Of a stretch of 26,221 nt of DNA, positions 500 to 21,894 are shown one piece after another. Numbering within the stretch: position 1 is the stretch's first letter; each line of letters opens with the position of its first letter. Made by a program: the position numbers and the translations under genes. The stretch covers positions 1 through 26,221 of the forward strand of contig JAKSYS010000774.1 of the NCBI GenBank assembly GCA_022925895.1. The letters are read 5' to 3'. This DNA is from Fragilaria crotonensis. Lineage: Eukaryota; Bacillariophyta; Fragilariophyceae; Fragilariales; Fragilariaceae. The notes under the pieces were generated by a model. It was given only the letters and a program-made list of their open reading frames with translations, was not told the origin of the DNA and searched no databases.

Positions 500-3202
500 T
501 CCATATGCTTTGCCAATTCTGTAGCAAGGTCCGTTGAGCTCCAGGTTTGGCATATCTCTTTGTAACACATGCAGCAAGGTTGGGGTAAAGGGGTTTTGGC
601 TGGATATCCTTCCATCCTTCCTTGAAGAGTAATTAGAAATCTTCGGCGGCTAAATTTTTTTGCGAAGGAATTTTGATCGTATTTGTCGACGGTCGCCCCT
701 GAACTTTGAAGGATCAGACCTCCTTCAGAGCAAAGCGAATTGAGCTCTTAATGCCAAGAGTCGATCCTCGTTTCGTGATTGGAGCAAGGGTGCAGGCGAA
801 AGCTCACCATGTGACATCACTCTCGCTCTGAGTGTCACCGATGATACGGAGCCAATGCCAAAACGAAGCACGTTAACGGGACTGTGACTTCAGTAAATTC
901 AGTCCCCTCGACCAATAACAAGCATGCTGTCACTCTCATCACCGCAGCTTACGAGCTTGGTGGTGGTCCTATCAAAGGAGTTGTCCTTGAATTCGCGATC
1001 AATCAAGTTGGCAGAAGAGGGATCGACGATGAACCCGTGACTGGACTCGGGAATGGAAACGACGCTCCCATCGACGACGCAATTGGAGCTCATGTTGCAA
1101 GAGTGAGCAATGAAGAGATGCTTGCAGCTCTCGAGAGCTCAGATGAGGTGTCGAGGACGAGGTAAGAGCTGCTGAGAGGACAAGAATTGCAGCTGCTGCA
1201 GCAGCATTTGTTGCATTGCCAGGGCCACCGCAAGGACCAGCAGGACCCTCCCCTTTTGTTGCAACTGTTCACGATGTACACTGGCGTGCGTCAGCCACCA
1301 CTGAACCACCATTGAATGGTGCTGTTCCTCCTCGTCAATGGAGTGTCAGGACTGCTGAGGGAGATGTCTTTGTTCCAGGAGCAGGAACAAACATAGCTGC
1401 CGTGTCTGAGATGTCAGGGCTGGAGTTTTTCTTCTCATGTTCCCTCCCAAAGCAACTCAGGGCCATGGTCAAATTGACTAACACTGAATTGATCAAGTTG
1501 GCGCTGCAAACCACTAACACCTCTGAAATGCTCAAATTCTTTGGCCTCTTGATCTTGATAACGACGTACAAGTTTACTTCCAGGGCAAGCTTGTGGGCGA
1601 TGACTGCACAAATGAAGTATAGACCAGCACCTCACTTTGGTCGCACAGGAATGTCAAGAAAATGATTTGACGACTTGTTTTGGGCAGTAAGGTGGAGTAA
1701 ACAACCTGCTGAACGTGAAAAGGACGAATGTTCAGAGGTACACAGGTGGAAGTTGGTGGATGACTTTGTTGCTGCATTCAATGAACATCAAGCAAATTTT
1801 TTTATTCCGTCGGATCACATTTGTGTTGACGAGTCCATGAGCCGTTGGTACGGCCAGGGAGGCCATTGGATCAGCCATGGCCTCCCACAATACGTTGCAA
1901 TCGATCGCAAGCCTGAGAATGGCTGCAAAATCCAGAACTCTGCTTGTGTTTGGAGCGGTGTGATGCTTTGTCTAAAGTTGGTGAAGGGTGCTGACCTTGT
2001 TGGTGAGGAGGACAAAAGTCAAGGAAACCAGGAGGTCGGTCTGTTGCATGGTACTCAAGTCTTGAAACATGTTGTCTCACACTGGTTTGGAACCAATCGA
2101 ATTGTTTGTGCAGACTCCTACTTCGCTTCGGTCGGCGCAGCGAAGGAGCTTTATCGAAACGGACTTCGATTCATTGGCGTCGTCAAGACGGCCACGAAAG
2201 GATTTCCAAAATCCTATCTCACCAACGTTGAACTCCATGAATGCGGCGACTTCCATGCCGAAGCTTCCGACAAGACTGACGCTATGGATCCTGATATGGC
2301 TGCCTTTGTGTGGATGAATCGTGAGCGTCGGTATTTCATTGCAACGGCAGGCAATCTTGCGGAGGGAACACCATATACTCACTGACGCTGGCAGCATGTG
2401 AACCATGCTCCAAACGCAGCTCCAGAGAGGGTATTCATGACAATCAAGCAACCTCAAATTGCAGAAGTCTACTATGATACTTGTGGGGCTATTGACCGTC
2501 ACAATCGATACCGACAGGACGACCTTCGAATGGAAAGAAGGTCAAGACAAAGGATTGGTCGGTAAGAGTCAATCTATCTATTTTTTCCATGATTGTTGTC
2601 AATACATGGCTTGTTTTCTATGCATTCAAGAATTCCCCAGACCTTCTTGCGGGCAAAAAAGAGATTCTGCAGAAGGACTTCTATGCAATGCTTGCAGAGG
2701 AGTTGATCGACAATACCTACGGCAGCAGCATCAGCAGTGCACGGCGACCGAGGTCGTCACCGACCAACTATCAAGATGCGTGCATGAGGGCGCTGGAATA
2801 TGGATCTGCACGCGCTGGTGTCCTCACTCATTTAACTCCAGTCAAGAGACTTAAGACTTCTGGAGGTAAAGCAACAAATCATAGGTACCGAGGGGGATGC
2901 AGAGAGTGTCAGAAGAAGTCAACTTGGCAATGCAGCGACTGCGGCGTCAGTGGAAAAACGGTGTTTCTTTGCTCAACAATATATGGCAAATGGTGCTTTT
3001 TGGACCGCATTGCTCACAACCATGCACACATAGATGAAGAATGAAGCATCGTATCAATGTTTCAATCATCTTTTATTAGTGTCAACATTGCCGTATTGAC
3101 CGTCATGGTCAACCCCTCTTTTGAGTGGAGTACAGTATCTTTTCCACGAATGCTGGCAAAAAATGGATGACGTTATTTAAGGCACTCGATGGCATTACTT
3201 AA
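459..3202 (+). mobile_element. Degenerate piggyBac-like DNA transposon
   Basis: The element is proposed from a piggyBac-type transposase pseudogene (884-3044) with matching sequence at both ends. TTAA, the piggyBac target and duplication, occurs at 459-462 and 479-482 on the left and at 3177-3180 and 3199-3202 on the right. The ends are imperfect inverted repeats: GGCATTA..TAA.GCCA at 451-466 matches the complement of about 3187-3206, CCTTA follows on each side, and TTTTTGCCA (488-496) matches TGGCAAAAA (about 3154-3163). The 400 bp before the transposase and 130 bp after it hold no other gene. GTAC words common in host intergenic DNA are scarce inside. Which TTAA pair is the true edge is uncertain, because the repeated TTAA could also reflect nested or subterminal repeats. 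Confidence 0.6.
884..3044 (+). pseudogene. piggyBac-like transposase (DDE_Tnp_1_7 type), inactivated
   Basis: Once catalysed cut-and-paste movement at TTAA. Seen: the fragments read 884-1162, 1216-1662, 1666-2382, 2386-2538 and 2538-3044. All three acidic residues expected for the family are visible: Asp at 1828-1830 (VDESM context), 2113-2115 (CADSYF) and 2494-2496 (IDRHNR). The C-terminus has the cysteine-rich zinc-binding domain (CREC, CSDC, then C/H residues) typical of piggyBac proteins. Breaks: a frame change near 1131-1162; TGA at 1663-1665 in a GMSRK*FDDL context; TGA at 2383-2385 in PYTH*RW; and a one-base loss at about 2533-2541 inside an A/G run. Both nonsense codons are explained by CGA to TGA at a CpG. 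The first codon shown is GTG and the true start is unclear. The body is multiply broken but the triad is intact, so inactivation looks fairly recent. Confidence 0.85.
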
Positions 3203-6239: not shown

Positions 6240-9200
6240 ATGAAGAGAACTCGGGCACGGTGTGCCAATGCAAGTACCAACGTCATGAAGTTATCCTTCA
6301 ATTATTTATCACCTCCTCGGTTGGTTCTTATCATCCTATTTTGTCTGTCTCGATCTGCCTTGTCTCAAACCTTACGGTATGAGTGTTATGCCCACCTCGA
6401 AGGCGCTGATCACAATCGAGACAATAAATTAAATAGAGAAGAATTCACGAATGCAGTCAATCGCATGGGGAAGGGGCACAATAATGACGCGTTGGAAGTG
6501 AATAATTTCATGGAACTTCCATTGGCCATCCAAGAAGCGTTCACACGCCTATCGTGCCGCTGTTTGGCTTTGGGACAGGAGAATGTGAATGTGGCGGTGT
6601 CTTGTTGCGGGGGAGAATACGCAACAGTGGACATTTCCGGTATAGTGCCTGGTACGCGTCCGACATCGGCCGAGGCACAACTTTTAGATGAAACATGCCA
6701 GGCAATTGACGATGCTCTGGCTAAATCCAAAATATCCAATGCAGACTTCCGTTTCAAGTCGTGGATGTATTGAGCGATGTCACATTTGCTCGCCAAGCAA
6801 CAGTAGCACCGACGTCGAATTCACAGCAGTGTTTGATTGGCATGGTTGTCTCTGATCAAAACCCGAGAGACGGTCTCATGAGCAGTTCGGAATACGTCGT
6901 TTTCGTCAATAGACTCTCCAATAAAGCTTTTGGCAGCACATTCGATGACCTTCCAACTGTTCTGCAAACAAACTTTGACAACCTGGCCCAAACCAATGGA
7001 GAGATCAACATCGAAGGGTCAACTCCTGGCTCCGATGCCACCACGGAACAAGAAGCGTTCCTTGAGCAAATATGTTCCGACACTCAAAGTGCTATTGATA
7101 CGGCACTGAGTGATCCCAATCGACCATCGGAACCACCATCACCGACCGCTATTCTGCCAACATCGGATGCCGTGCCGACTCCAACGCCCACTTCACCTTC
7201 CAACGTTCTTCCTACCACCCCCGTCTCCCTGACTAGATCGCCCACCAGAGCTCCAATACGATCACCAACAACGGGCACTCCAGAGCCAACACCGTCACCG
7301 CCAACGAGCACGCCCAAGCCAACACCGTCGCCAACAAGTACGCCCAAGCCAACACCGTCGCCGGTAACAAGTACACCCAAGCCAACTCCATCGCCGGTAA
7401 CGAGTACGCCTAAGCCAGTACCGTCGCCGACGCCAGGGCCACCATCGTCCAGTGGTACTGCAAGACCGACAAGGCAGGTAAATGAATGCTTCGTTGGAAT
7501 GCTCATCAGTGACAGCTCTCGCGACGGCACATTGGACCAAACCGAGTACGTGACCTTTGTCAATTTTTTGCAGAATTCGTTCGAAGGCATGACATACGAC
7601 GAGTTGCCCTCGGTCCTTCAGGATAATTTTGATAATTTGGCTACCAATGGATCAATTGACATCGAAGGTGTGGCGGGTCCAACCGAGGCGCAAAACATCG
7701 TCCTTACGAACATATGCGACGAAACCAACCAAGCCATTAGTGCGGCACTTGACATCCCGACCATTTCGCCGCAGCCTGCTGCGACCCCTTCGCCAACGAG
7801 AAAGCCGACACCACCGCCTACTCCGGTGCCAGCCACACCTGCTCCTACCTCAACGCCAACGACGAAGCCGACTTCATCAGCGCCAATTTCACCGCCAACG
7901 AAGAAACCAACGTCATCCGCGCCGACCTCACCGCCAACGAAAAAGCCGGTTTCATCCGCTCCAACATCAACGCCTCCGCAAATAACTACATTGGGTCCAA
8001 ATGAAATCCAAAGTCCCGCCCCAACTTCAAGAGCTCCTACAATATCGTCGCCTTCAATATCGTTCCAACCCTCTGGACAATTGGAGAACGTCGAGGTATC
8101 TAACATTTTCGTGATCTCCAATACGGATGGCATCACTGTCAGCCAGCTTAACAATGCAACAAACCCGGAACGAATTAATGTGGACGACGCCTATGCATCC
8201 ATAGTACAGACCACAATCGACAGCGAGTTCCAAGGATCAAGATACCTCAGAACGAGACGATTTCTGAAAGTCGATTACGTCAGCGCAGGCGCTCGCCAGT
8301 TCACTGACGTTGCGTGTCCAGCGGGGGCTGCTGCGCTTGCCTTGTGCCAACAGGTCCTTGCGACATTCTTCCTTGCAGTTTCTAGCGACGAGGATGCTGC
8401 GCAAGTGTCGGCGGACGCCAAGGCGGCTGTTGATGCAGCTATCGCTGCTGGCGACATGCAATCACTTCTAAGTCAGGAAGGATCGTCAATTAGCGTTGAA
8501 GAGGGCGCCCCTATTGTTGATGTACCCACATCCGCACCTTCATTGCCGCCGTCAGATGCTGCCACACTCAAGCCGACGTTTGGTGGATTCTCCGGTGACA
8601 TTACAATTGAGAGTGTTTTCTGCATTTCGAATACTATCAATATGACTGCATCTGATTTGCAGGCAGACAACAGCAACAAAGTAGACCTAGAGGCTGCCTA
8701 CAACAACACCGCGTCAGGGGTTGTAACAGCAAAAGGTGACGTGGGAACCAGTTTCGTTCCGTCCAGCGGATTCATCACGGATATTGTTGATGTTCCGTGT
8801 CCTGCAGGTTTGACCAACGCAACTTTGTGTCAGCGAGTCAACGCGCAATACAACATCTCGGCAGTCAGCGATGATAGAGGCGCCACCCTCCAAGAGTACA
8901 CTAACGCAACGAATACGGCCATCATAGAGGGCGAGCTTCAGAATGCCCTTGACAAAATCAACCGCAGCACACCTATTAACATTGAATGGCAGATGAGCAC
9001 TCAGTCTCCGACGCCGACCCCAACGTCCGCGCCCACAGGAGGCGGAGATGGTGGTCTCTCGACGACTGCTACGATTTTTATCGGAGTTGGCAGCGCAGTC
9101 GCTTCGCTAATCTTTTGTATTGGACTCTACTTATTCTGTGGACGACGCCCCGCTCGAGGCTCCAAGCAAGGACGCCCTGGAAAAGCTTCAGCGACTGAGG

Positions 9201-11945
9201 CGGATGATTTCGGTTACGGATTTGTGGGTCGCGATGATGCAGGCAAGACAGACATGAAAGGGGACAGTAGTGCAAGTTACGACCAGTACGGGGTTCTTGA
9301 TGACTCTGAAGTATCCGGTCCGGCGGATCAAAGGAAGCCAAGTGCCACCAAGGATGCGAACAATGATAGCTTCGCTCGGTTCGATGATGATTCAGACTCA
9401 CGGTCATTTTCAGAATCTGACGCCTCACGGTCTGATTCCGGCTCAGAATCGATGTCTGAAGACCCGCGTGAGAATCTCAGTATGGGTGATGATTCACAGG
9501 CATCTTCAAATCTCGATGACTATGAGTTTGATGATCCCACTGGAATTGACCAGAAGAAAATTGTTAAGAGAGCCGCAAACCAGCCCTCCTCTGATGAGGA
9601 TTCCGAGTCGTCACACGGTTCTGTTTCCGAATCATCAGCGCCACAATCTATGTCCGATTCTGCATCCCGTTCTGCCTCAGAGTCGGTTTACGATAGCGAA
9701 TCCTCGCAGGAAAATGATGACGGTTGGGACGATGATGACGGAAGCACAAGTGAACCCGAAAAATCGGAAGACATCGAAATCCAGGGATCCTTCTCCGATT
9801 TGGTTGCTGATCGAAGCGCTGCGGTGCAAAATAAGGTCTTTGAGACCGCGTCCTCTCAGGCAGCAGTAGCTCCCTCAAGTGTTGAGGATCAGGAGGGTTT
9901 GACAGCTGGCGAAGCCGCTGGTATTGGTGTTGCAGCTGGTGCAGCAGGTGCCGGCGCGGCTGTATTGCTCTCGCGAAAGAACAGGAGTGATAAAGTCGAG
10001 GACCCGGCCTATGATTCTGAAATGGACGATACTCAGACCGATGACAACACAAATACTGATGGTTACACCAATACTGACGACTACACAAACACGGATGATT
10101 ACACGAACACTGATGATTATACGCGCACGGATGATTACACGAACACTGATGACTACACGAACGAGGGGTACACCTCAGTGGACGGCACTGAAGTTGGCGA
10201 AAAATCTGTAGCTGTTGCAGCCACTGCAGCCGTTGGTGCAACCGCACTCGTCGCTGCGACCAGCGGGAAGTTTGATTCGGAATCGGAGTTTGAATCGGAC
10301 TCCGACTCGCGCTCGTCGGGATCATACTCGTCCGGATCTTATACGGAGTCCGAAGGTGAGAATGACCGTAAGTACTCTAATGCCAACCGTGCAAGGGGTT
10401 CCACACCGCCTGGTCAAGTTCCCCTGGACGACGAGTCAGAGTCTTCATACACCAGTGGCTCGTACACTGAGTCTGAAAGCGAGGTCGAACGGAAAAGGGA
10501 CAAGACTGAAGTTACCACCTCTGTGTCGCCCACGGAGAGCAACCATCTCCGCTCAGCGTTAGATGAAAGTGAAAGCGAACTTGACGAGAGTGACTACACT
10601 GATTCAGATAACGACACATACGAAGAGGGAACCCTAGACGGAACACTTGATGGCACTTATGCTACAGACCAGGATGTTCAAGCTGCAATAGCTGCTGGCG
10701 CTCTGGGGAATGGTTTTAAGAACGCATCCGAGAAAGCCCAGGGGGGCATTCCTGACGAAGTGCGACGAAACAGTGATTTAATGGATAAGAAGTTAAACGA
10801 AGGAGACTGGGATGGAATAATCGACCATGTGGGTAAGGTGGAAAACCTTGACGAAATGGAGAAAAATGAGGCTGCTCGAGAGCGAGATCACACTCCTAGT
10901 TCGGGTTCCGATTCTGGCTCGCAGTCTCACTCCGACTCCCAAAGTCGCTCGGGTAGCTCATACTCTGGTTCATCGTACACTGGAAGTCACTCTGGGAGTG
11001 GTTCTTACAGCCGGAGTGGCAGCGAATCGGATAGGTCTTCACGTGGGAAGGACAGAAGTGAACAATCCTACTCTGATGACGGTTCTAACACCGAGGACTA
11101 CACCACTGAAGGCTACGTCACCGAGGGTGCTTCGTCGACCGTTGATACATTGGTCACGGAAACCCTCAGGTGAGATGCAGCGAAAGCAAGAGGTCAGAGC
11201 AGAAGTGGAGGCTCTTGTTCGACTCGTAGTTCCGGAGGAAATCGATAATATCGATGCCATGCTGGCTCAATTCGAAGGACGTGAAGAGGAGCTGTTGCAG
11301 ACTTTGAGAACCATGCAGGAACGGAGTGTAACGTTTCGAGCTCGAGCCGCAGTTCACAAAAGCTCCGGTCGACCGCCACCTCGTCGTGGTGATGGTGTAG
11401 GTTATCGTCGTGATGGCGGCGCCTATTCAGTTGACTCGCGGCAAACTGGCGAGTCGGAAACATCTCGCGGTTCTACAGCAGGCTCAGCGGCTATTGCCGC
11501 GGCTAGCATTCCAAGGCCGGCAACGGGTAGGGTGCCGATTCACCCCCCACCCGTTCCTGCTTATGAATCGAGGCGTGAGTCGGACGGCTCATCGCCTTAT
11601 TCGGATCCTTCAAAGAATTCTCCCCCTGAGGTTCGTTCCTCTGGTGCCATTCGGCGCGAAAAGATACGAGACCCATCAAGTGATGGTGACAGCGATAGTG
11701 GCAGTGAGAGTGAAAGTCGAAGCGAAGAAGGCAGCTATAGCAGTGGAAGCTACACATCGGCCTCTGGATCGCAATCCGGGTCCTACACTGGCAGCAGCGC
11801 AAGTAGAAGCGAATCTTATGCAAGCAGGAGTCTCGATGATTTGCCCAACCGATGGAAGACTAACGACAAGCAGCCCTTGAGCAAGAAGCTGGACGCTGGG
11901 GACAGCTACGTGGAGAGCGCTGCACATCGCGTTTCACGTCGTTAA
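6240..11945 (+). CDS. EF-hand, PTS-rich, single-pass membrane protein with acidic tail
   Basis: Role unknown; it looks like a diatom cell-surface or silica-vesicle membrane protein. A signal peptide (MKLSFNYL.. to SALSQ) starts at the second ATG, 6285; the first ATG is 6240. Three related cysteine-containing domains follow at about 6380-6720, 6830-7110 and 7475-7760. The first and third have canonical EF-hand loops ([24 protein letters not shown]); the second loop has one extra residue. TPKPTPSP and [10 protein letters not shown] linkers separate them. Two homologous DV.CPAG modules lie at about 8080-8480 and 8590-8990, then a membrane segment (about 9063-9140). The cytosolic side is Ser/Asp/Glu-rich with a YTNTDD repeat and two Ala/Gly-rich hydrophobic stretches (about 9900-9975, 10200-10265). 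It ends with a helical block ([28 protein letters not shown]) I recall from many diatom proteins. The frame changes 0 to 2 near 6750-6806 and 2 to 0 near 11170. Confidence 0.75.
6751..6806 (+). other. Possible short intron (or frame break) after the first EF-hand domain
   Basis: The first domain reads in one frame to a stop at 6771-6773, while the second domain reads in another frame and is open from 6725. A GT-AG segment of 56 bp (6751-6806) would join them correctly, giving NADF-PPTSNSQQ. A 53-bp version ending at 6803 also works. The donor GTTTCA is poor, so a one-base sequencing or assembly error is a real alternative. Confidence 0.3.
7301..7426 (+). repeat. Coding 30/33-bp repeat, TPKPTPSP linker
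   Basis: Units at 7301-7330, 7331-7360, 7361-7393 and 7394-7426 each encode (V)TSTPKP.PSP. They form an extended, probably O-glycosylated spacer between the second and third EF-hand domains. Confidence 0.85.
7852..7968 (+). repeat. Coding 39-bp repeat, [10 protein letters not shown] linker
   Basis: Three in-frame 39-bp units at 7852-7890, 7891-7929 and 7930-7968 encode PPTKKP.SSAP.S-like sequence. The lysine in each unit makes this linker basic, unlike the neutral first linker. Confidence 0.85.
10052..10159 (+). repeat. Coding 18-bp tandem repeat, (N/R)TDDYT x 6
   Basis: Six exact 18-bp units encode [30 protein letters not shown] and NTDDYT, followed by a partial NEGYT. They lie in the predicted cytosolic tail and are rich in Thr, Tyr and Asp, so could be phosphorylated. 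Confidence 0.9.
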
Positions 11946-12562: not shown

Positions 12563-13771
12563 ATGGAGACGGAACCTGTCCCAATGGGTCAGTCTGCGTC
12601 AACGGATTCCGAGGCGCCTAAGAATGCAACCCAACAGGAAGCAATGGAAGATACCGTAGCGCTTCCTGGAGCTGCGACCGACGGTGTTGATAACGACCAC
12701 GACAGTATTGAAAAATCATCCCATCCCAACAGTGTCCAGCACAGTACCTCCGAAGGCGACAAGGATGCGCCTTCGATTTCACTTGCTGCTATTCCGAAGA
12801 AAGCACAAGAGTCGCAAGACGATGCCGTTCCTGAAGACTCGTCGGGGCTTGGCTTGCTTGACATGTCCAGGGCTGATGCGAGCGAACCAAACCGTCAAGA
12901 GTTGACAAAGAGCAATACTCAAACAGTGCCGGAAGCTGGTAGTGAGAAAAATTCTGACGCAGCCCTAGATCACGTGGTGGATGATGCGCGGAGCAATGAT
13001 GTTGTGAAGGAACTATCGCAGAATTCCAGCGAGCCAATCGCGGCCGCAAATGGTGACGTTCCTGCAAAAGGCGAATCGTCTGGCACGCCACTGCCAGTCA
13101 CTACCGCTTGGACAGACGTGAGTCCCCGACGACGAAAGCGAGGTACGTTCGAAAACCTAGTTTGGCGTGTCATGTTAGCCATGTGATGAATGCGCCTCAT
13201 CCATGCTGCAAATGAAGTTGCTGTTAAAACTGTTATTCGGAATCTGACTGCTGGGCGAGATGAAGCGGAAGTCGACGGTCCGATGACCAAGAAACCTAGA
13301 GATACGAGCGATATGCTAGAATTGTCTGGTTCATCAGCCTTGAACCAGGAGGCGTTAGACGTATCTATCCCTACGAAAGCATCCAAAACGGAGACTAAGC
13401 GCAAGAAGTCGGTTACGCCTTCTGGAAGTTCAGTGTCCAAAAAGAAAGTTGCAGCTTCGGGACCATTGCCAAATTCCAAGGCAACACCTAAACAACCCGG
13501 AAAATCCCCGGCTAGGACGAGTGCTAAGGAAATATGGTCTGGACCGCCTACAGAGCCTTTGGAAGGGGGTTGGCCTGCCGGATGGATTAAGAAAGTATTT
13601 GAACGGCAAAGTGGAGGAACCGCTGGATCCACGGATAGGTATTGGTATTCTCCGATGACAAACAAGAAGTTTCGATCCATGGTGGAAATAAATCGTTTTT
13701 TCCACCACTTGAAAGCTTGCGGAGGCAACGAAGATCAAGCTTGGCGATTAATGAAGGCAAAGCAAGGATGA
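12563..13771 (+). CDS. MBD-like domain protein (377 aa)
   Basis: Probable nuclear DNA- or chromatin-binding protein. Exons 12563-13142 and 13218-13771 join in phase 1 across a 75-bp GTACGT..AAG intron that removes two consecutive TGA codons. Residues 1-290 are low-complexity, acidic and Ser-rich, with a basic PRRRKR patch at the splice junction that could be a nuclear localisation signal, and a second lysine-rich patch before the domain. Residues about 300-355 resemble a methyl-CpG-binding domain: GGWPAGWIKKVFERQSG, TDRYWYSP, KKFRSMVEINRFF. Compared with MeCP2, the counterparts of Asp121, Tyr123 and Arg133 are present, while Arg111 is Lys. The start is the first ATG in frame. The next gene downstream, same strand, ends in a related domain, so the two probably arose by local duplication. 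The family call rests on motif order and spacing read by eye. Confidence 0.7.
13143..13217 (+). other. 75-bp intron of the MBD-like gene
   Basis: AG|GTACGT is a good donor and ATGAAG|TT an acceptable acceptor. The length is a multiple of three, so the frame is kept, and removal deletes tandem TGA codons at 13184-13189. Continuous reading on both sides gives RKR-V-AVKTVIRN. Confidence 0.65.
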
Positions 13772-14435
13772 TGTCGTTATCGCTATCTAGATGACGAATG
13801 GATTAGGTTTTACTCCGTACTTTAGCGATAGTACAGGAGTCGCAATGCATTACGCCTCAAATAATTGCAGGCTGCTGTAAGATAATTGTTTTAGAAACAT
13901 GCAGTGATATGTATTCGGAGTCCTATAGCTTCGATGCTAGTTCATTACTTGTACGGAGTACCAAATTACCCGTGAAGGAATTGCAAAATCCTGTTTCTGA
14001 AACTTGCCGTCAAAACAGCAATCTTGCGAACTTCGACCTCGTAACTCGCTACAAGAGTATTATTGCAACTTTCATGACCCATTGCCCATTGCCCATTGCT
14101 GTTTAGGATCAAAGCTCCCCGTAATGAATCCGTAGGCCGCAACCTGCAATTGTACTCGTACCTGGTACCTGGTATATGTACTGTATTATACTTGTGTCTT
14201 GTGTCGTATACAGGAGCACTACAGTAGGCGCTCGGACTACTACAGGTAGTAGTAAACAGTAAACAAGCACTATACATGATTACTTTTTTGTGCTGTAACT
14301 GTACTTGTACAAGGAGTCTATCGTCTATTACAGTCTACCGGTAGATGAATGCATGAGCAGTGAGCAGTTATCAGGATCGCTGTCATCAAGCATCAAGAAC
14401 AAGACAAAGGATTCTTTCGGGTTGTGACCAAGAAC
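13772..14435. other. Intergenic DNA between the two MBD-like genes
   Basis: No gene is supported. It holds a (CCCATTG)x3 microrepeat at 14078-14098 and a GTAC cluster at about 14152-14310. Confidence 0.5.
14152..14310. repeat. GTAC-palindrome cluster
   Basis: CGTACCTGGTACCTGGTA, GTACTGTA, and CTGTACTTGTACAAGG occur within 160 bp of intergenic DNA. Confidence 0.6.
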
Positions 14436-16529
14436 ATGGACAACACGTCGTTGTTACAGTCATATCCCAGCGACAAAGCTGCATCCATCCTAGAGAGGCA
14501 GAATGAACTGAATCAACTGTTGCCGCCATTAAAGATTGGCGAATACGACACTGTCGTTGAATCCATCGCGGGTAGAGGATTAGGGTTGCATTTAAAGGTC
14601 AAGGAGGGGATCATCGCCTTTTGCGGCTATAAAAAATTTGAGGATGGGTTCAAATGCCCAGCTGAATTAAACAAGTCCGTTCATGCAGTAGGGGACGTGT
14701 TCATCGCAGTCGACGGTGTGAGCCTTGATGGTCTGTCGTTTAGGGATGCATTCGCGGCACTCCAGGCGAGCGTCGGAGAAGGAAACAAGTTTGTTTTCCT
14801 GAGGTTTAGGGAGAATGCGACAGCGTCGTCGTCCAACATCTCCACCCCAGCATCGGTCGTTCAGCCACTTTCTGCTGATACAGGCTCTACCACTGTCATT
14901 CAACCGCCCACCATACTGGATAAAGCTGAACAACCTCACCGAGAAGTGGTGTCATCGACTGAAGCCAAGAGTCACGATGGGTCCGCATCACCCGCGATTC
15001 CCCCCTCTAGAATGCCGCCAAAAAGTCGGACAATGGTATGGTATGGTCATACACGCATTCCCTATCCCGGGATAGCGCAGAGGCTCCAAGCCATGGAGGA
15101 GGCATTCGCTGAGGAAAATGCTCCTCCAACATCGAGTCAAGAGAACGCAAGCGTAGAATCAGCAAGTGTATCGGAGATAGGCAAACACCAACAACTACAA
15201 GCTGGTAGCGGTGAAACTGGAATTGCCCCTCAAAGGAGCGTTTACAGGGCGCCTTCGGTCGTCGAACCTGCAACATTTGCTTCAAATCATCCAGCGTCGT
15301 CGAGTCAAGAGAACGCAAGCGTCGAATCAGCAAGTGTATCGGAGATAGGCATACACCAACAACTACAAGCTGGTAGCGGTGAAACTGGAATTGCCCCTCA
15401 AAGGAGCGTTTACAGGGCGCCTTCGGTCGTCGAACCTGCAACATTTGCTTCAAATCATCCAGCGTCGTCGCAATCTGCTGGAACCAGTTTTGGAACCAAC
15501 CGCTCAGAGACGAATTTCATGGGCACGCCGACGGAGCAGTCGACAGCGATGCGTACCAACGAAAAGCAGGACTCTTTGTCTGGCTCAGAGCAGCAACTAC
15601 CTCAAAATGTGTACCACCAACCGAGCGTCAACTCCATGGGAAATGCAACCGCTTCCAACGATATGACTAATGTCGCCGATAATTCGAATCATGAAGCAGG
15701 TCCTGTGACCACGTCAACAACGAATGAGTCGCATTCCACACCACGCAATGCTGTCACTCTACAAGCCAAACAACCCGCACTTCCCACAAAATCGAGCTCA
15801 GTGCAACAAGTGCCGTCGCAGCAATCGAATTTCGGATCAGTCAATTCTTCATTCCAATCTCTTGGAAACTGCGCAAATATTGCTGAGTCGAGCTCGATGG
15901 AACCGATGCTGATGAAAGAAGGAAATGTGTCATCCGCACTTAGCACGAATGCACTACAACTTACAAACAGCAACGAGCCTCTCCCCCCTTCGGATTCGTT
16001 CACTGCAGACACTTCCGTTGACCATTTTCCAAGGAAGAGGCTATTTGCTTTCAAAAGTGTCCTCCAAGGCGACGTACGATCTATGAACGCGTCGTCAATC
16101 GTCTCTTGCAGGGTCTTGGAAGCCAAAGGGGAGGAGGGGTACAAGCCCCTACATTTGAAGCGAGCCGCAATAGCGTATGCGACACCATTGAATGACATTG
16201 ACGAGCTGATGGAAGCGAAGCAACAACACACTACTCGCAACCGAAATGGTGGGCGAGGTCAAAAGCGAAGTGCGGAAGCGCACACCTCACCGCACGCTTC
16301 AACGAGTCCTAAGAAGCAAAGCAATCCTCGTAGCTTGATGGGAAGGGCTCCCACATTGGTGTACGAAGGACCACCCCTAAAATCACTGTTTGGAGGTTGG
16401 CCTGATGGATGGATTCAGAAAACATATCAACGACAGGGATCAACGAGCCGCGATAGCTACTTCTATGGTCCAGGGACGGACCATAGATTTCGGTCTTTGA
16501 TCGAAGTACTGCGTTTCCTGGGACGCTAA
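14436..16529 (+). CDS. PDZ-like and MBD-like domain protein (697 aa)
   Basis: Probable nuclear adaptor that couples a protein-binding PDZ-like fold to a DNA-binding-type domain. ATG at 14436 is chosen; the frame also opens at a GTG twelve bases earlier. Residues about 37-125 fit a PDZ domain: GRGLGLHLKV as the carboxylate-binding strand and loop, VGDVFIAVDGVSLDGLSFRDA, and a closing FVFLRF strand. Residues 130-630 are Ser/Gln/Asn-rich and look disordered, with a near-perfect 56-residue duplication. Residues about 643-697 resemble an MBD: GGWPDGWIQKTYQRQ, RDSYFYGP, HRFRSLIEVLRFL, ending two residues after the fold. Counterparts of MeCP2 Asp121, Tyr123 and Arg133 are present, but Arg111 is Gln. 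The shorter neighbour upstream shares only this C-terminal domain. Both the PDZ and MBD calls are by motif reading. Confidence 0.7.
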   Translation: MDNTSLLQSYPSDKAASILERQNELNQLLPPLKIGEYDTVVESIAGRGLGLHLKVKEGIIAFCGYKKFEDGFKCPAELNKSVHAVGDVFIAVDGVSLDGLSFRDAFAALQASVGEGNKFVFLRFRENATASSSNISTPASVVQPLSADTGSTTVIQPPTILDKAEQPHREVVSSTEAKSHDGSASPAIPPSRMPPKSRTMVWYGHTRIPYPGIAQRLQAMEEAFAEENAPPTSSQENASVESASVSEIGKHQQLQAGSGETGIAPQRSVYRAPSVVEPATFASNHPASSSQENASVESASVSEIGIHQQLQAGSGETGIAPQRSVYRAPSVVEPATFASNHPASSQSAGTSFGTNRSETNFMGTPTEQSTAMRTNEKQDSLSGSEQQLPQNVYHQPSVNSMGNATASNDMTNVADNSNHEAGPVTTSTTNESHSTPRNAVTLQAKQPALPTKSSSVQQVPSQQSNFGSVNSSFQSLGNCANIAESSSMEPMLMKEGNVSSALSTNALQLTNSNEPLPPSDSFTADTSVDHFPRKRLFAFKSVLQGDVRSMNASSIVSCRVLEAKGEEGYKPLHLKRAAIAYATPLNDIDELMEAKQQHTTRNRNGGRGQKRSAEAHTSPHASTSPKKQSNPRSLMGRAPTLVYEGPPLKSLFGGWPDGWIQKTYQRQGSTSRDSYFYGPGTDHRFRSLIEVLRFLGR
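15132..15467 (+). repeat. 168-bp in-frame tandem duplication
   Basis: 15132-15299 and 15300-15467 differ at only two positions noticed (GTAGAATC/GTCGAATC and GCAAACAC/GCATACAC). Each encodes 56 residues beginning SSQENASVESASVSEIG. The length is a multiple of three, so the frame is kept. Confidence 0.95.
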
Positions 16530-17509
16530 GTTGTGGCCTGGTCATAACCTTAGATTTCATATTAGTTTATGGACATTATTTGCACGGGTCTCATGCGCAT
16601 GGAACGAAAATCGGACCATTGGATGCATCGTTCTTCCTTTCGCGCTCCGTCGCTTAGCATTCCATGCTCTGAACAGAAGCCCCTCTCCCTGTCATTCTTG
16701 CAGTGTGGCTCCTGTACTCACCGGAGAGCTTGCCTTTTGCTATAACCTCCATTCTTTTTAGCGCATGTAATTTTTCTTGATGCACTTGCGCACACTCTCA
16801 AGACCTTCATCATAGTGAGTGTCATATCATGAATTGTTGGCACCATGCTTGTTTTCCCTCGAATCATGGTATGGTTCCAACTTGGACGATTCCGAAAATG
16901 AGGTGTCAGCAGCCCCAGGACTGTGAGGGTTCCATTATAATCAATTTTCTGCTGTTTCACTGTGGCGGGCGTCAAAAGTGCTCACAGTGGTGCTCTGTCG
17001 TTGAATTGTAACATGAAAGGCTCATGGATTAATGGTTCTCGCTCTAGCTCATTGGCGCGTACAGTTTATGCTGTGTTGTGTGAAGTTGTCGCTTTAGTTA
17101 GAACCTACTCTAGCTCGTTGGAATTCGGTGGATATACTGTACTATATGTTTGGACCCTAAGTAAGATACGCAGACAGTAATTCGAAGGGCCATCGGCTCA
17201 CTCTATAGAAACTTATTCATATTTTTTACCTTGTTTCGTGGCAAAATCAACGCGTCAGGCTTTCGACTTGGTGTGGTGTCAACCCTTGGCCGCCTTCTCC
17301 TTAAAACTTTATTGCTCACCTTGAGCAAGCCAAACGAATAGCAGCAACAGCGCCGGGAGCAACACATCGAATGCTCTGGCGCGCAGAATTTGAAATAGTG
17401 CAGGGTGTGGGTGAATTGCAACGTCATGGCGCGTGTCTGAGAGAACGACGGAGTGAGCTGGAATCGATTGGTCAAGAAATTTTCAATAAAGTCACAAACC
17501 TCACGTGGT
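16530..17509. other. Intergenic DNA between convergent genes
   Basis: It lies between the stop of the PDZ/MBD gene and the stop of the minus-strand E3 gene, so it should hold both 3' UTRs. CTTTATTG near 17307-17314 reads as AATAAA on the minus strand and could be the E3 gene's polyadenylation signal. No gene is supported. Confidence 0.5.
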
Positions 17510-18883
17510 CTAACCTTGACGAAGAATTTGTCGCAGTTCCTCTTCAGAGCCCAAAACTCGAACGCAACACTCCGTCACCTTGGACCCAAAGTTGCCACGC
17601 CAGAAGCTCGAGTCTTTTCCATAAACTAGTATAGCAACCTCATGCGCTCCATTCGTTGGCTCAAGGACCAGCGAAGCCCTCTCCCAAAAATCTGCTGGAG
17701 CTTGCAATTCGGGGGTACTGACCCGAGCCAGTTGCGTCCGTTCCGCGTTGAGGATGATTGCCTCGAGTCGGAAGACGGACGGGCAATCACTCCTACCCAT
17801 GAATTTCGCAGATACTTCAACTCTCACCGATGAAGCGTCATTGACGAACTGATGCAGGGGGACAGTCTGTCCCATAACGCTCCACATGTAGGAACTAACA
17901 AAGTTCGTTGTCACAGTGTCATTGAGTGGGATTTCTGAAGTTTGCACTTCCCATGGCCTGGCAAACTGACGCCACCCCCGCAGGCCCTCCTCGCCATTGG
18001 GATTGTGAACAAAGTTTCTCGATCCTGGATCCTCTTGAACGACTCGGAAAGGAGATGAAAGGCACATGATACAATGATAAAGTTGTTCACACGACGGCGA
18101 GGGTCCATTGTCATGATGATGATGATTCTCGTCGCCTTGACCGCCTGGTGCTTTGGGGTACTGGCACGCACCACCTTGACATGGGATTGGTTCCAACGGA
18201 GGCGGGGCGGTAGTAGCACCTGGTCGCTGATGTTCTCTGACTCGTTGGCTGTTTCGATCGTGACAGTCGTGACAAAAGTGAACTGTACCCGAGCAAACAA
18301 AGTTTGCAGGGTTGCAACAATAGCGACATTTCCAAATGTGAAATAGTCGATGTTCGTTTGGGTGTCGGCAGATTGCTTGTGAGTGGGGTGCGCAAGAAGG
18401 ACAAAGTCTGTCGTTCGTTGGCAATTCTCCTTCGTCCTGGTCAGCACACTCAATGGTTCCTCCAAAGTAGGGTTCTTCGCATGAATTGCATAGATAAAAT
18501 GCGTAGGTGTTCCTCCCTTCGTCCAACAATTTGATCTTGTCTTGCGCAGCGTCCCAAATCTGCGGGGCATCAATCTGCAACTGCTCTTTAATGAGAGCAT
18601 CTACTTGTTGCCTTAATGCATCTGTACGTCTGGTGAGATTCCGAAGAGATTCGTGATCGCAGAAAACACCACATTTGGCACATCGACAACCAGAAAAAAG
18701 AATCCTCTTGGCATGATTGGGTTGAGCATGCTCAAGCTGCTCCTTGAGACAATTAAAATGCCATCGGTGACCACAGGTAAGTTCAATGGTCTCTTCATCC
18801 TCCAAGGAGGATAGACAGATAGCGCACTCGGTGGATGCATCCTTGAACGTTGTACCCCTGGTACCGATCGCATTCGTCGCCAT
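17510..18883 (-). CDS. RING / tandem-cysteine (RCR) / FBA-domain E3 ubiquitin ligase (457 aa)
   Basis: Predicted E3 ligase. The only ATG in the frame is 18881-18883. RING-H2, residues 20-71: C20, C23, C37, H39, H42, C45, C66/C68, C71. Residues about 125-275 match the tandem-cysteine domain of MYCBP2/PHR proteins: NTYAFYLCNSC, YFGGTIEC, KCRYCCNPANFVCSGTVHFC, HDCH, and a closing CIMC. In MYCBP2 this domain relays ubiquitin between two cysteines and esterifies Thr/Ser. C146 and C197 occupy those two positions and H208 that of the base. Residues about 290-445 match the F-box-associated domain of FBXO2/FBXO6: NPNGEEGLRGW, WEVQ, FVSSYMW, GRSDCPSVF, DSSFWRGNFGSKVT. That domain binds high-mannose N-glycans; W428 aligns with the glycan-contacting Trp. 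No F-box is present. Ubiquitylation of glycoproteins is inferred. Confidence 0.85.
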   Translation of the reverse strand: MATNAIGTRGTTFKDASTECAICLSSLEDEETIELTCGHRWHFNCLKEQLEHAQPNHAKRILFSGCRCAKCGVFCDHESLRNLTRRTDALRQQVDALIKEQLQIDAPQIWDAAQDKIKLLDEGRNTYAFYLCNSCEEPYFGGTIECADQDEGELPTNDRLCPSCAPHSQAICRHPNEHRLFHIWKCRYCCNPANFVCSGTVHFCHDCHDRNSQRVREHQRPGATTAPPPLEPIPCQGGACQYPKAPGGQGDENHHHHDNGPSPSCEQLYHCIMCLSSPFRVVQEDPGSRNFVHNPNGEEGLRGWRQFARPWEVQTSEIPLNDTVTTNFVSSYMWSVMGQTVPLHQFVNDASSVRVEVSAKFMGRSDCPSVFRLEAIILNAERTQLARVSTPELQAPADFWERASLVLEPTNGAHEVAILVYGKDSSFWRGNFGSKVTECCVRVLGSEEELRQILRQG

Positions 18884-20151
18884 AGTCCTTACCAAATTGT
18901 GAATCGTGCTGATGTGGAACGGATCAAACAGGGGAAATCCGAAAACGCGGATCTTTTGACTCGACCTGGAACGTGGACGCGACAAGAGTTTTCCAAGTAT
19001 GTCATGTACGGGTACCAGTAGAGAAGTGCTGCAAGTACCGATAGTTCCTCGTATTCTACTTCGTACCAACAGTACACGGATCTTCTGGATGAAGTTGCAG
19101 ATTCGATTTTACCCTTGCACTCGAGGATTGTACTCTACAAGAGTACAAGTACGACTTTCTAGTAGCAGTAAACCTTCCCTACCGGTAGAGTACAGTCACT
19201 GTGGACTCTACCGTAAATAGTGTAAGTTAAGCACCGGGAATTGTGCATGAAATTTCCAAAATGGAGCTTATCTTCCGAGATTTCGTTCGTGTTTGGTCCG
19301 CGAGAAAAACTAAAAAATGAAGATTCAAACTCTTTTCCCTGTATTTGATGATATATATTCATTTGAACCTCTTATCCAACACTATTTGAATGACCTGACG
19401 TTTCGGTTGAATGCCAGATTTCATCGATACAAAACGGCATCCGCGAGTTTCGTTGTGGCCGATCGATGTACGCAAGATTCCGTCCAGATTCCGTCCTTGG
19501 AGTTTATCTTCCGGTGGAGCTTAAGGTGTCTCGTATTTTACTGGTGTAGTAGTACAACAGTATCTCATAGTCGGAGATCTTACCAGCATAGTATGATGCG
19601 TTACTGTTGCGTTCCAGAGTACTGGTATCTACCTGGCACTGGAGTACCAAGGTTAAAGTAGTAGTTCAACGTACCACCAGTACAATTACACTGTTACGAC
19701 CTGCTCCTGTACACATAAATGATATACTGTATGAGTACGGTACGCATACATCTATGACATATGATATGATATATCATTGGGACGCGCACATGCCTGAGGG
19801 GGTGTCACGAAGTCTGCAATTCAGGCAATACGGCTATACAGTACGAGAATGTACCAGGTACTCGGATGGCGAACAACATCACACGCCGCCGGACCGAATT
19901 TTGTTCGTGCCAACTGAATGATAAATCATCCTCATTCGACACGAAGGACAAAGAACGACATTAACATGCCTACCAGTAGACCTAATGCATACTGCAAGCA
20001 TAAATGTACGCAATCCTCGATCCCATCGAGGTCGTTGACGTACCAGTACTCTATTGCATCAAACTCAAGCGATAACCAGAAGACAGGTCGTGAACGGCGA
20101 AAACGAACGATGGAAGAACTCCGAATATCTCACACTCATCGGTACCCGCAC
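18884..20151. other. Intergenic DNA between divergent genes
   Basis: This 1.27-kb stretch separates the E3 gene (minus) from the SET gene (plus), so it should hold both promoters. Scattered GTAC words occur (about 19005-19020, 19060-19075, 19555-19760). The two reading frames extend upstream of the chosen ATGs into it but without motifs. No further gene is supported. Confidence 0.5.
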
Positions 20152-21894
20152 ATGTCCAGGGTGAGAAGACGTTCGTTTCTGGGATTCGTACCATTACTGG
20201 CAATCATTTCTTGCCATTCTGCAGTGGCATTTAGTTCGATACGAAAACAAGTTGATGAGGACAAACCTACAGCGCCGGTGGTTCCAATACCCTCACCAAA
20301 CAATGCACCAGCAGCTCGACATCGTTTGCACGAGTCAGCGTCAGGTGCAGAGGATGACGATGTTGATCATGATCATATCGATCTCAAACCACCCACACAA
20401 TCACCTCCAGGCCTGCAACCCGGCGACGTTGCGCTTCCAATTGACGCCGCTGCTGTTGCCCCAGATCAGCCGTCAATCCTTAAGCGACCGCCGGCGAATA
20501 CACCAGTCCAAACTCAAAATGAAGCCATTCAACAAGATTTTCTTCATTGGTGTACTGCAGTAGGAATACACACGAATCTGACAATACAAATCTTTGACTA
20601 TCAAGACTTTCGACAAATACACACGAACCAAAAAAATCATGCAGATTTGAACGATGATGACGACAACACCCCATCATCATCGTCATCACGAAAGGTTGCC
20701 ATCGTTGATCCCCCTCTCTTGCAAGTTAGAGGTTTGGCTGCTACACGAGACATTCAAAAGGGTGAAGTTGTCATTGTCATTCCCTTCTCCGCCATGATTA
20801 CTGTTACCACAACAATTGATGGTGATCCCATCCTTAACAAGGTCATGGGTCCTGCGGTACGGAGTCAGCATGACTGGGAGGATGAATTTTACGAATTAGC
20901 ACTCCTCACAGTTGCCATTTTGTACCATCGAAATTTAAAGAAGGCTTCGCCCTTGTACCATTACATTACCATTTTGGAAACTTCACCAACGGACAACATT
21001 CCATTCCTATGGACCAAGACACGTTTGCAACAGGAAACTCCGGAGGGCGTTCGTCGACACGCTCGTGGTATTTATAAGGACATTCAAGAGGCATATGATG
21101 CTGTTGTTTTAGTTCTTAAACGAGAATATCCGGATCTATTTGAGACGGAGACCTATTCCCTCCACAATTTCATGTGGGCCTTTGCATTGGTCAATTCACG
21201 ACATTGGCACTTACCCATTCCGGGTCAGCGCAAGGGACCGAAAGATCTCGAAAATCGTGCCCCATTATCAACGGAGGGAGTTGGAGATCAGCTCCCACCT
21301 GCGTCATTACCGACGGACGAGTGGATGGCAAAACGAGGGGACGTGGGGAGTGTTGTACCAGTCGAAGCACATTCCTTCTTGGCACCCGTCGCCGATTTAT
21401 TGAATTTTGGTCCACCTTGTACGAGAGGGTCGTACAATTCCAAGACACAAGCCTTTGAATTGGTAGCGACATGTTTCTTCCTCAAGGGACAAGAAGTGAC
21501 GTATTGGTACAGTGACGACTGCGATGATATCGTCATCGCCAACTACGGCTTCACACACCCAATGGTACCAGCCTGCCCAACGACAGAAGAGTTGCGACAG
21601 GAGGTGGAACTATGGAAGCGACGTGCCAACAATTTTGAGACAGAAATCGAGCTTGCGTACGTGGACTTGGAGGTCCTGGAACGAGAATTGGTGCATGCGC
21701 ATGACGCGTTGGCGTCTTGCAATTGTGACGATTCCTTTCAGGGACAGCATAAAGGGACAGGCAAGTCAAGAAAGGGAAAGACAGCAATCGATAAGCATGA
21801 TCACATTCGAGGAAGTAACCAACCACCAGACTACGAACGACACGGCATCCGGCGGAAAGCGTGGAATCATCAGAAATCGGATATGGGATTGTAG
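20152..21894 (+). CDS. SET-domain methyltransferase, LSMT/SETD3-like, plastid-targeted (580 aa)
   Basis: Predicted S-adenosylmethionine-dependent lysine (or histidine) N-methyltransferase of the Rubisco LSMT/SETD3 type. The frame is open from ATG 19918, with ATGs at 20110 and 20152. The last is chosen because it gives a proper signal peptide: MSRVRRR, a hydrophobic FLGFVPLLAII core, and cleavage at AVA|FSS, an ASAF-like plastid-import site. Residues 30-115 are a disordered linker. The SET region spans about 192-467: RGLAATRDIQKGEVVIVIP, a long helical insert, NSRHW (348-352), PVADLLNFG (412-420), GQEVTYWY (446-453) and ANYGF (463-467) with the expected catalytic tyrosine. The usual Asn-His of SET motif III reads Asn-Phe. 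A charged helix (about 480-525) and a basic tail follow. It converges on the gene at 21955. The substrate is not predictable. Confidence 0.8.
   Translation: MSRVRRRSFLGFVPLLAIISCHSAVAFSSIRKQVDEDKPTAPVVPIPSPNNAPAARHRLHESASGAEDDDVDHDHIDLKPPTQSPPGLQPGDVALPIDAAAVAPDQPSILKRPPANTPVQTQNEAIQQDFLHWCTAVGIHTNLTIQIFDYQDFRQIHTNQKNHADLNDDDDNTPSSSSSRKVAIVDPPLLQVRGLAATRDIQKGEVVIVIPFSAMITVTTTIDGDPILNKVMGPAVRSQHDWEDEFYELALLTVAILYHRNLKKASPLYHYITILETSPTDNIPFLWTKTRLQQETPEGVRRHARGIYKDIQEAYDAVVLVLKREYPDLFETETYSLHNFMWAFALVNSRHWHLPIPGQRKGPKDLENRAPLSTEGVGDQLPPASLPTDEWMAKRGDVGSVVPVEAHSFLAPVADLLNFGPPCTRGSYNSKTQAFELVATCFFLKGQEVTYWYSDDCDDIVIANYGFTHPMVPACPTTEELRQEVELWKRRANNFETEIELAYVDLEVLERELVHAHDALASCNCDDSFQGQHKGTGKSRKGKTAIDKHDHIRGSNQPPDYERHGIRRKAWNHQKSDMGL

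Follow-up and report, generated by a model that had tools for sequence, protein, structure and literature searches.

The list of E3 ligases that form ester bonds is short but growing. MYCBP2 is described as having two relay cysteines, a Cys-His-Glu triad in which the histidine acts as general base, and a threonine pocket of three phenylalanines (PMC9527308, PMC6769291). A 2019 review raised the question of whether it is a lone E3 with non-lysine specificity (PMC6769291), and a 2026 compendium of human E3s places it among the atypical E3s as the one that uses the relay mechanism (PMC13061254).

F-box-associated (FBA) domains are found in a different set of proteins. In Fbs1 (FBXO2) a pocket of aromatic residues holds the sugar; FBXO44 (FBG3) keeps Tyr-Tyr-Trp at these positions, yet is reported not to bind sugar and to act on a non-glycoprotein (PMC4603797). 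Fbs3 (FBXO27) is described as N-myristoylated and as ubiquitinating LAMP2 on ruptured lysosomes, and FBA receptors in the Fbs form as restricted to vertebrates (PMC6389600). Together, SCF-FBS2 and ARIH1 are reported to esterify ubiquitin to the C6-OH of GlcNAc, for which ENGASE is required, and to Ser/Thr of the sequon (PMC13270118).

Gene structure and family

The window analysed here is the whole 26,221-nt stretch of a contig of the diatom Fragilaria crotonensis. On its minus strand, positions 17510-18883 form an open frame of 457 codons that encodes a RING, a tandem-cysteine (TC) domain and an FBA domain, in that order; read forward in the same frame, the interval is interrupted by stops. 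The initial annotation had proposed this order, with a TC domain of MYCBP2 type, and had given no strand. Pfam, solved-structure and family-profile matches bear it out on the minus strand.

The length of 457 residues did not hold. The stop of this frame (17510-17512) lies within a 78-bp, phase 1 intron (17437..17514, minus strand; GTTAGA...TCTCAG). The gene (17309..18883, minus strand) has two exons. Exon 1 (17515..18883, minus strand) encodes residues 1-456 plus the initial base of codon 457, and exon 2 (17309..17436, minus strand) encodes the C-terminal tail. Joining 18883-17515 to 17436-17309 yields a RING-TC-FBA-tail-anchor protein of 498 residues, whose translation is exactly that of NCBI protein P0002 from the same species. 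A soluble protein of 457 residues is ruled out, its stop being intronic. The name that the source gives to P0002, which refers to a cupin-like domain, was rejected as support because Pfam shows no cupin family.

Elsewhere in the window, all on the plus strand, are broken-looking transposase pieces (1216-3044; one lies just below the PF13843 cut-off and another has no Pfam match) and a 1,470-aa low-complexity ORF without a Pfam match (6761-11173), which is rich in Pro, Thr and Ser and has acidic repeats and, by eye, a possible transmembrane stretch. An ORF at 13190-13771 encodes, close to its C-terminus, a methyl-CpG-binding-like domain (MBD; PF01429, 7.2e-8); another at 14424-16529, with no Pfam match, ends in a stretch that resembles this MBD by eye. 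A SET-domain protein (19918-21894; PF00856 1.6e-4, 22.5 bits, at the cut-off of 22.4) adjoins the gene described here in divergent orientation.

Relatives were collected in two protein searches, with 120 of 181 and 120 of 175 matches listed, and aligned in three sets of 47, 50 and 48 sequences. Conservation is counted over 140 rows that include P0002; P0001 was left out as part of P0002. "Diatom clade" refers to 120 of these rows, that is, all but 20 red-algal or similar rows that were set aside by hand. A quick, unrooted tree of 61 rows places 42 diatom-like rows across a branch with an SH-aLRT of 100 from three named red algae and 16 others, and so confirms the division for 42 + 19 rows.

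Among the matches listed, the named diatom relatives come from Seminavis, Cyclotella, Stephanocyclus, Skeletonema, Thalassiosira, Cylindrotheca and Epithemia, and the named red-algal ones from Gracilariopsis chorda, Rhodosorus marinus and Purpureofilum apyrenoidigerum. Lineage assignment was checked for four species. Contamination is less likely for G. chorda and R. marinus because their genes lie on long contigs (590 kb and 3.19 Mb). Other stramenopile proteomes had been suggested as a place to look for the same order: it does recur in diatoms, but it is not a stramenopile speciality, since red algae have it too. A family confined to diatoms is thereby ruled out. With the tree unrooted, transfer from a red-algal plastid ancestor is one possible history. 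In the F. crotonensis assembly, an exon-by-exon search with the whole protein finds one match only, this gene.

Could the arrangement be an artefact, in which annotation has fused two adjacent genes? Gene models in the RING-TC-FBA family are often wrong at their ends, and P0122, although marked complete, has RING and TC without an FBA domain. Even so, the idea is vanishingly improbable. The three domains lie in one unbroken exon, which already refutes it for the 17510-18883 frame, and FBA is found in 47/47 and RING_11 in 45/47 aligned members. A split into two genes had been named as something transcripts might reveal; instead, five MMETSP transcript ORFs (P0017, P0022, P0030, P0054 and P0064) hold RING, TC motifs and FBA together. 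These ORFs from relatives support the view that the frame is part of one expressed reading frame, and the two-gene explanation was rejected.

Residues 1-130 of P0120, used as a query for relay modules with other partners, gave three matches: P0120 itself, P0123 and P0122. The last is a transcript ORF of 298 residues that ends before the FBA domain and may be either a genuine short form or a truncated transcript. The Purpureofilum and Rhodosorus proteins and P0122 (P0120, P0122 and P0123; residues 1-40) have an added Cys/His-rich stretch ahead of the RING, and none was seen in the diatom proteins of the 47-sequence alignment. In the Rhodosorus model a segment running from the last part of TC into the first part of FBA is absent, apparently through a missed exon. 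Two longer relatives, P0133 (937 aa) and P0126 (711 aa), have much additional sequence past the first FBA domain, and P0133 has two FBA stretches. NCBIfam gave a single match, far below cut-off, for P0002 and P0120. A scan of viral contigs with the 47-sequence family alignment gave 43 pattern stretches, none of them confirmed.

The relay module and the FBA domain

The RING is of the RING-H2 type and spans residues 20-71 (18671..18826, minus strand; Pfam PF17123 1.6e-8, PF13639 1.8e-6). Among the 126-128 rows with a letter at the position concerned, each of its eight ligands is missing from one row at most. Pfam gives no family above cut-off for the middle region of the protein, where the TC domain (residues about 127-275; 18059..18505, minus strand) is recognised by its match to the MYCBP2 RING-Cys-relay (RCR) module. 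In a comparison with solved structures, the protein matches the MYCBP2 RCR chains 5o6c (E 5.7e-21) and 6t7f (E 7e-21) over residues 14-216, and with a 47-member family profile the match improves to 3.3e-34.

Structure prediction, which had been proposed as a check, agrees with both assignments: MYCBP2 and Fbs1/FBXO2 both rank high among the fold matches. The pTM of the model, 0.56, leaves the relative placement of the domains uncertain. The VIA list for the whole model was filled by FBA matches, and the RCR module was therefore folded separately for comparison.

We take the catalytic residues of MYCBP2 to be C4520, C4572, H4583 and E4534, numbers that are consistent with the RCR module of 5o6c spanning residues 4379-4631. 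By alignment, the first relay cysteine is Cys146 (18446..18448, minus strand), which is Cys in 140/140 rows, and the second is Cys197 (18293..18295, minus strand; 138/139). The one row without it has Tyr there and is, by sequence, the divergent long row P0133. The general base corresponds to His208 (18260..18262, minus strand), His in all 139 rows. Residue 158, aligned to the glutamate, is Asp in 72/140 rows, including Fragilaria, and Glu in 41/140, and is thus acidic in 113/140. The protein thus shares with the RCR class a RING followed by a MYCBP2-type TC domain that has, by alignment, the two relay cysteines and the histidine of the catalytic site.

The acceptor pocket is a different matter. 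The three pocket phenylalanines of MYCBP2, whose identity we presume, align with residues 198, 203 and 211. Position 203 is Phe in 127/139 rows; position 198 is Tyr in 132/139 and Ser in Fragilaria, and position 211 is Asn in 121/139, Fragilaria included. Two of the three phenylalanines are thus replaced, which counts against the function proposed below. The three-Phe pocket is perhaps a specificity feature of MYCBP2 and not necessarily of the whole RCR class. Going by the alignment, RCR chemistry looks conserved and the acceptor pocket altered.

One could also suppose that the RING is an ordinary lysine-directed ligase and that the TC domain does no more than hold zinc as a scaffold. By homology, many of the TC cysteines coordinate zinc, and invariance by itself does not tell relay cysteines from zinc ligands; the altered threonine pocket would fit as well. 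Against this, Cys197 and His208 vary about as little as the remaining TC cysteines do, and the acidic partner is kept in most rows. We regard the scaffold explanation as quite improbable, and relay and ester chemistry as likely on the basis of the conserved residues.

The FBA domain follows at residues 284-446 (17546..18034, minus strand). PF04300 matches residues 284-443 with an E-value of 2.8e-18 and scores 66.7 bits, well past the Pfam cut-off of 32.4; this profile search, too, had been put forward as a check. Residues 288-441 match the FBXO2 structure with E 4.2e-11, and the 47-member profile does so with 3e-24. This is the sole FBA match found in the F. crotonensis assembly by the exon-by-exon search. 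The F-box that normally accompanies such a domain had been noted as absent, and none is detected: Pfam gives none at E up to 10, and across the 47 aligned members 13 families come up at E ≤ 0.01, an F-box not being one of them.

Does the domain bind glycans? The aromatic pocket of Fbs1 (Phe177, Tyr279, Trp280), which is necessary and not sufficient for sugar binding, is present as Tyr332, Phe427 and Trp428. Tyr332 (17888..17890, minus strand) aligns to Phe177, and its position is Phe or Tyr in 125/138 rows, His in 10/138 and Cys in 3/138. Phe427-Trp428 (17600..17605, minus strand) align to Tyr279-Trp280, with Phe or Tyr in 128/137 rows and Trp in 136/137.

An alternative is that the same relay ligase uses its FBA domain to bind a protein degron, as FBXO44 does, so that its substrates would be non-glycosylated membrane or cytosolic proteins. 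FBXO44 itself, with its Tyr-Tyr-Trp and no reported sugar binding (PMC4603797), is the precedent. By family profile it is closer to this FBA domain than FBXO6 is (2.7e-18 against 2.2e-16), which counts against glycan binding, and the Foldseek E-value likewise puts FBXO44 nearer than Fbs2/FBXO6. The rows with His or Cys at the first pocket position also favour a protein ligand. On the other hand, an interface with protein only would have no obvious need for the near-invariant Trp428 or the aromatic residue at 427. VIA gives the opposite order to Foldseek, placing the model closer to wild-type Fbs1 (Z 20.7-21.4) and Fbs2 (20.4) than to the non-binding FBG3 (18.3), although for the sugar reading this is weak evidence. 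The protein degron is a possible explanation that we think has distinctly less than an even chance. Glycan binding, suggested by the kept pocket, is the property that we infer for the domain.

The C-terminal tail and its cellular setting

Exon 2 adds 42 residues, from 457 on, which end in RARAFDVLLPALLLLFVWLAQGEQ and include a predicted transmembrane helix. The hydrophobic stretch covers residues 478-494 (17324..17374, minus strand), with a Kyte-Doolittle mean of 2.35 over 17 residues, and the predicted model has a helix at 468-496. According to hydropathy and model only, this is a single helix at the extreme C-terminus (478-494 of 498), as in tail-anchored proteins. The earlier reading missed this: the protein is a predicted tail-anchored membrane protein.

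Relatives were scored for a 17-residue stretch past Leu444 whose mean Kyte-Doolittle value is at least 1.6 and whose end lies no more than 19 residues from the C-terminus. Rows in which 40 or more residues follow Leu444 were testable, which applies to 60 of the 120 diatom-clade rows. The helix is found in 53 of these 60 (53/120 overall), and in about 8% of shuffled versions of those tails. Seven testable rows are without it, which speaks against an anchor: P0026, barely below the threshold, P0051, P0077, P0105, P0107, P0132 and P0134. Shorter rows, such as Seminavis P0042, also end without the helix. The Cylindrotheca fusiformis model includes the tail, and that of Cyclotella cryptica ends ahead of it. 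Among nine transcript-type rows examined, seven have it (P0017, P0019, P0022, P0030, P0054, P0064 and P0075; the helix of P0019 is weaker, and P0075 is without its N-terminus) and two, P0014 and P0122, do not.

Some of the missing helices may be a matter of gene models. At about the position of the intron, 12-14 residues past the equivalent of Leu444, 23 of the 120 diatom-clade rows come to an end, 14 of them in G and five in GE. Such ends would match read-through of G|GT or G|GTGAG into the intron, and read-through may explain some diatom-clade rows that lack the tail helix.

Basic residues after the helix are typical of mitochondrial tail anchors and not of ER ones. There is no Lys or Arg after the helix in 36 of the 53 diatom-clade rows, and because basic tails are mostly absent the ER is the favoured membrane. 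In or adjoining the stretch, LP is found in 35/53 rows, an aliphatic residue, Ala or Phe followed by Pro in 47/53, and Trp followed by L, F, I, A or M in 45/53. A tail-anchored protein of such a shape would have its RING, TC and FBA domains on the cytosolic side.

On the red-algal side the ends look different. CaaX-like ends are seen in 4/20 red-side rows (P0120, P0123, P0126 and P0133: CNMC, CRFM, CAIM and CCLS) against 1/120 in the diatom clade, and two of the three named red-algal members end in such boxes. A prenyl anchor that replaces the tail helix in red algae is possible; the pattern is post hoc and serves as a lead only.

With two possible membrane attachments, a tail helix in diatoms and CaaX-like ends in a minority of red-side rows, the protein might be a sensor of membrane damage and not an ERAD ligase. 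It would be anchored to endomembranes and ubiquitinate glycoproteins bared by a broken vacuole, endosome or plastid-associated membrane, much as the N-myristoylated Fbs3 ubiquitinates LAMP2 on ruptured lysosomes (PMC6389600). The CaaX part of this argument was noticed after the fact, however, and 16/20 red-side rows have no such box, some perhaps because their models are cut. We consider a dedicated damage sensor unlikely.

The assembly also offers a setting for glycoprotein quality control. It contains seven matches to the Derlin family, of which two share a frame, as well as a frame that matches PRKCSH twice (OS-9 or glucosidase-II-beta type) and a gene that matches peptide:N-glycanases with E 7.9e-28. 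Because of these matches, handling of misfolded N-glycoproteins is plausible. The N-glycanase relative begins, by eye, with a signal-like stretch and hence may not be cytosolic. A search of the assembly for GH85 endo-N-acetylglucosaminidase (ENGase) gave 0 matches; the exact mammalian sugar reaction is therefore disfavoured, and the Ser/Thr branch could still operate.

Proposed function and comparison with known systems

The domain architecture, the conserved catalytic and pocket residues and the hydrophobic tail on a separate exon are established at the level of sequence. We propose that they make up a tail-anchored, hydroxyl-directed RING-Cys-relay ligase for cytosol-exposed glycoproteins at the ER or chloroplast ER, a function whose chances we judge to be roughly even.

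Such a ligase could work as follows. The C-terminal helix would insert into a membrane, most likely the ER or the continuous chloroplast ER, and leave the remainder in the cytosol. There, the FBA domain would grip N-glycans of glycoproteins that have been retrotranslocated or exposed through membrane damage. The RING would recruit E2~ubiquitin, and ubiquitin would move to Cys146 and then to Cys197. With help from His208 and the acidic Asp158, a hydroxyl of Ser/Thr, or possibly of a sugar, would attack the thioester. One chain would thus perform a job that in mammals is split between SCF-FBS2 and the transthiolating ARIH1. The glycoprotein substrates are suggested by the FBA pocket, and sugar hydroxyls may be among the ubiquitin acceptors.

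In its broadest form, the proposal would describe a single-chain, membrane-tethered glyco-ubiquitin ligase of diatoms and red algae, whose Tyr/Asn pocket permits ester-linked ubiquitin on sugar hydroxyls or on Ser/Thr near N-glycans, and which serves cullin-independent quality control at the ER or endomembranes. This version is rather doubtful at present. If true, it would mean that the RCR mechanism is an old eukaryotic invention and is not peculiar to the giant PHR proteins. Compact relatives of about 500 residues with a built-in substrate domain would be a convenient system for studying relay chemistry and ester-linked ubiquitin, and would show that FBA receptors have been coupled to ubiquitination a second time, without cullins. 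The predicted tail anchor gives the loose notion of a glycoprotein ligase a location that can be put to the test.

With MYCBP2 and the PHR family, the diatom protein shares the RING and tandem-cysteine module, both relay cysteines, the catalytic histidine and, in most rows, the acidic partner. It differs in having 498 residues where the PHR proteins are giants, and in being fused to an FBA domain and a membrane tail. No PHR-family accessory domains are found in it by Pfam, which gives only RING and FBA above cut-off.

Fbs1/FBXO2, Fbs2/FBXO6, Fbs3/FBXO27 and FBXO44 have the FBA (SBD) domain in common with it. Unlike these F-box proteins, it has no detected F-box, carries its own catalytic module and has a tail anchor; SCF recruitment is accordingly not expected. 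If the proposed function is right, the resemblance to SCF-FBS2/ARIH1 lies in pairing an FBA receptor with a transthiolating ligase that places oxyester-linked ubiquitin at or near N-glycans (PMC13270118). The mammalian system consists of a multi-subunit cullin complex and a separate RBR, whereas the diatom protein would be one chain with a relay module.

Database entries of the same family and architecture are named "protein ligase MYCBP2" (Seminavis robusta), "E3 ubiquitin-protein ligase highwire" (G. chorda), "F-box associated region/RING-like zinc finger" (JGI) and "cupin-like domain-containing protein" (P0002). The first three of these source-given names already hint at the MYCBP2/FBA make-up, and none of the four refers to the tail. 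The initial annotation held that the arrangement had not been described before, and among the matches listed from the openly licensed PMC literature no paper deals with such a protein. The catalytic module and the binding domain were already known; what is new is their combination, the predicted membrane attachment and the lineages in which they occur.
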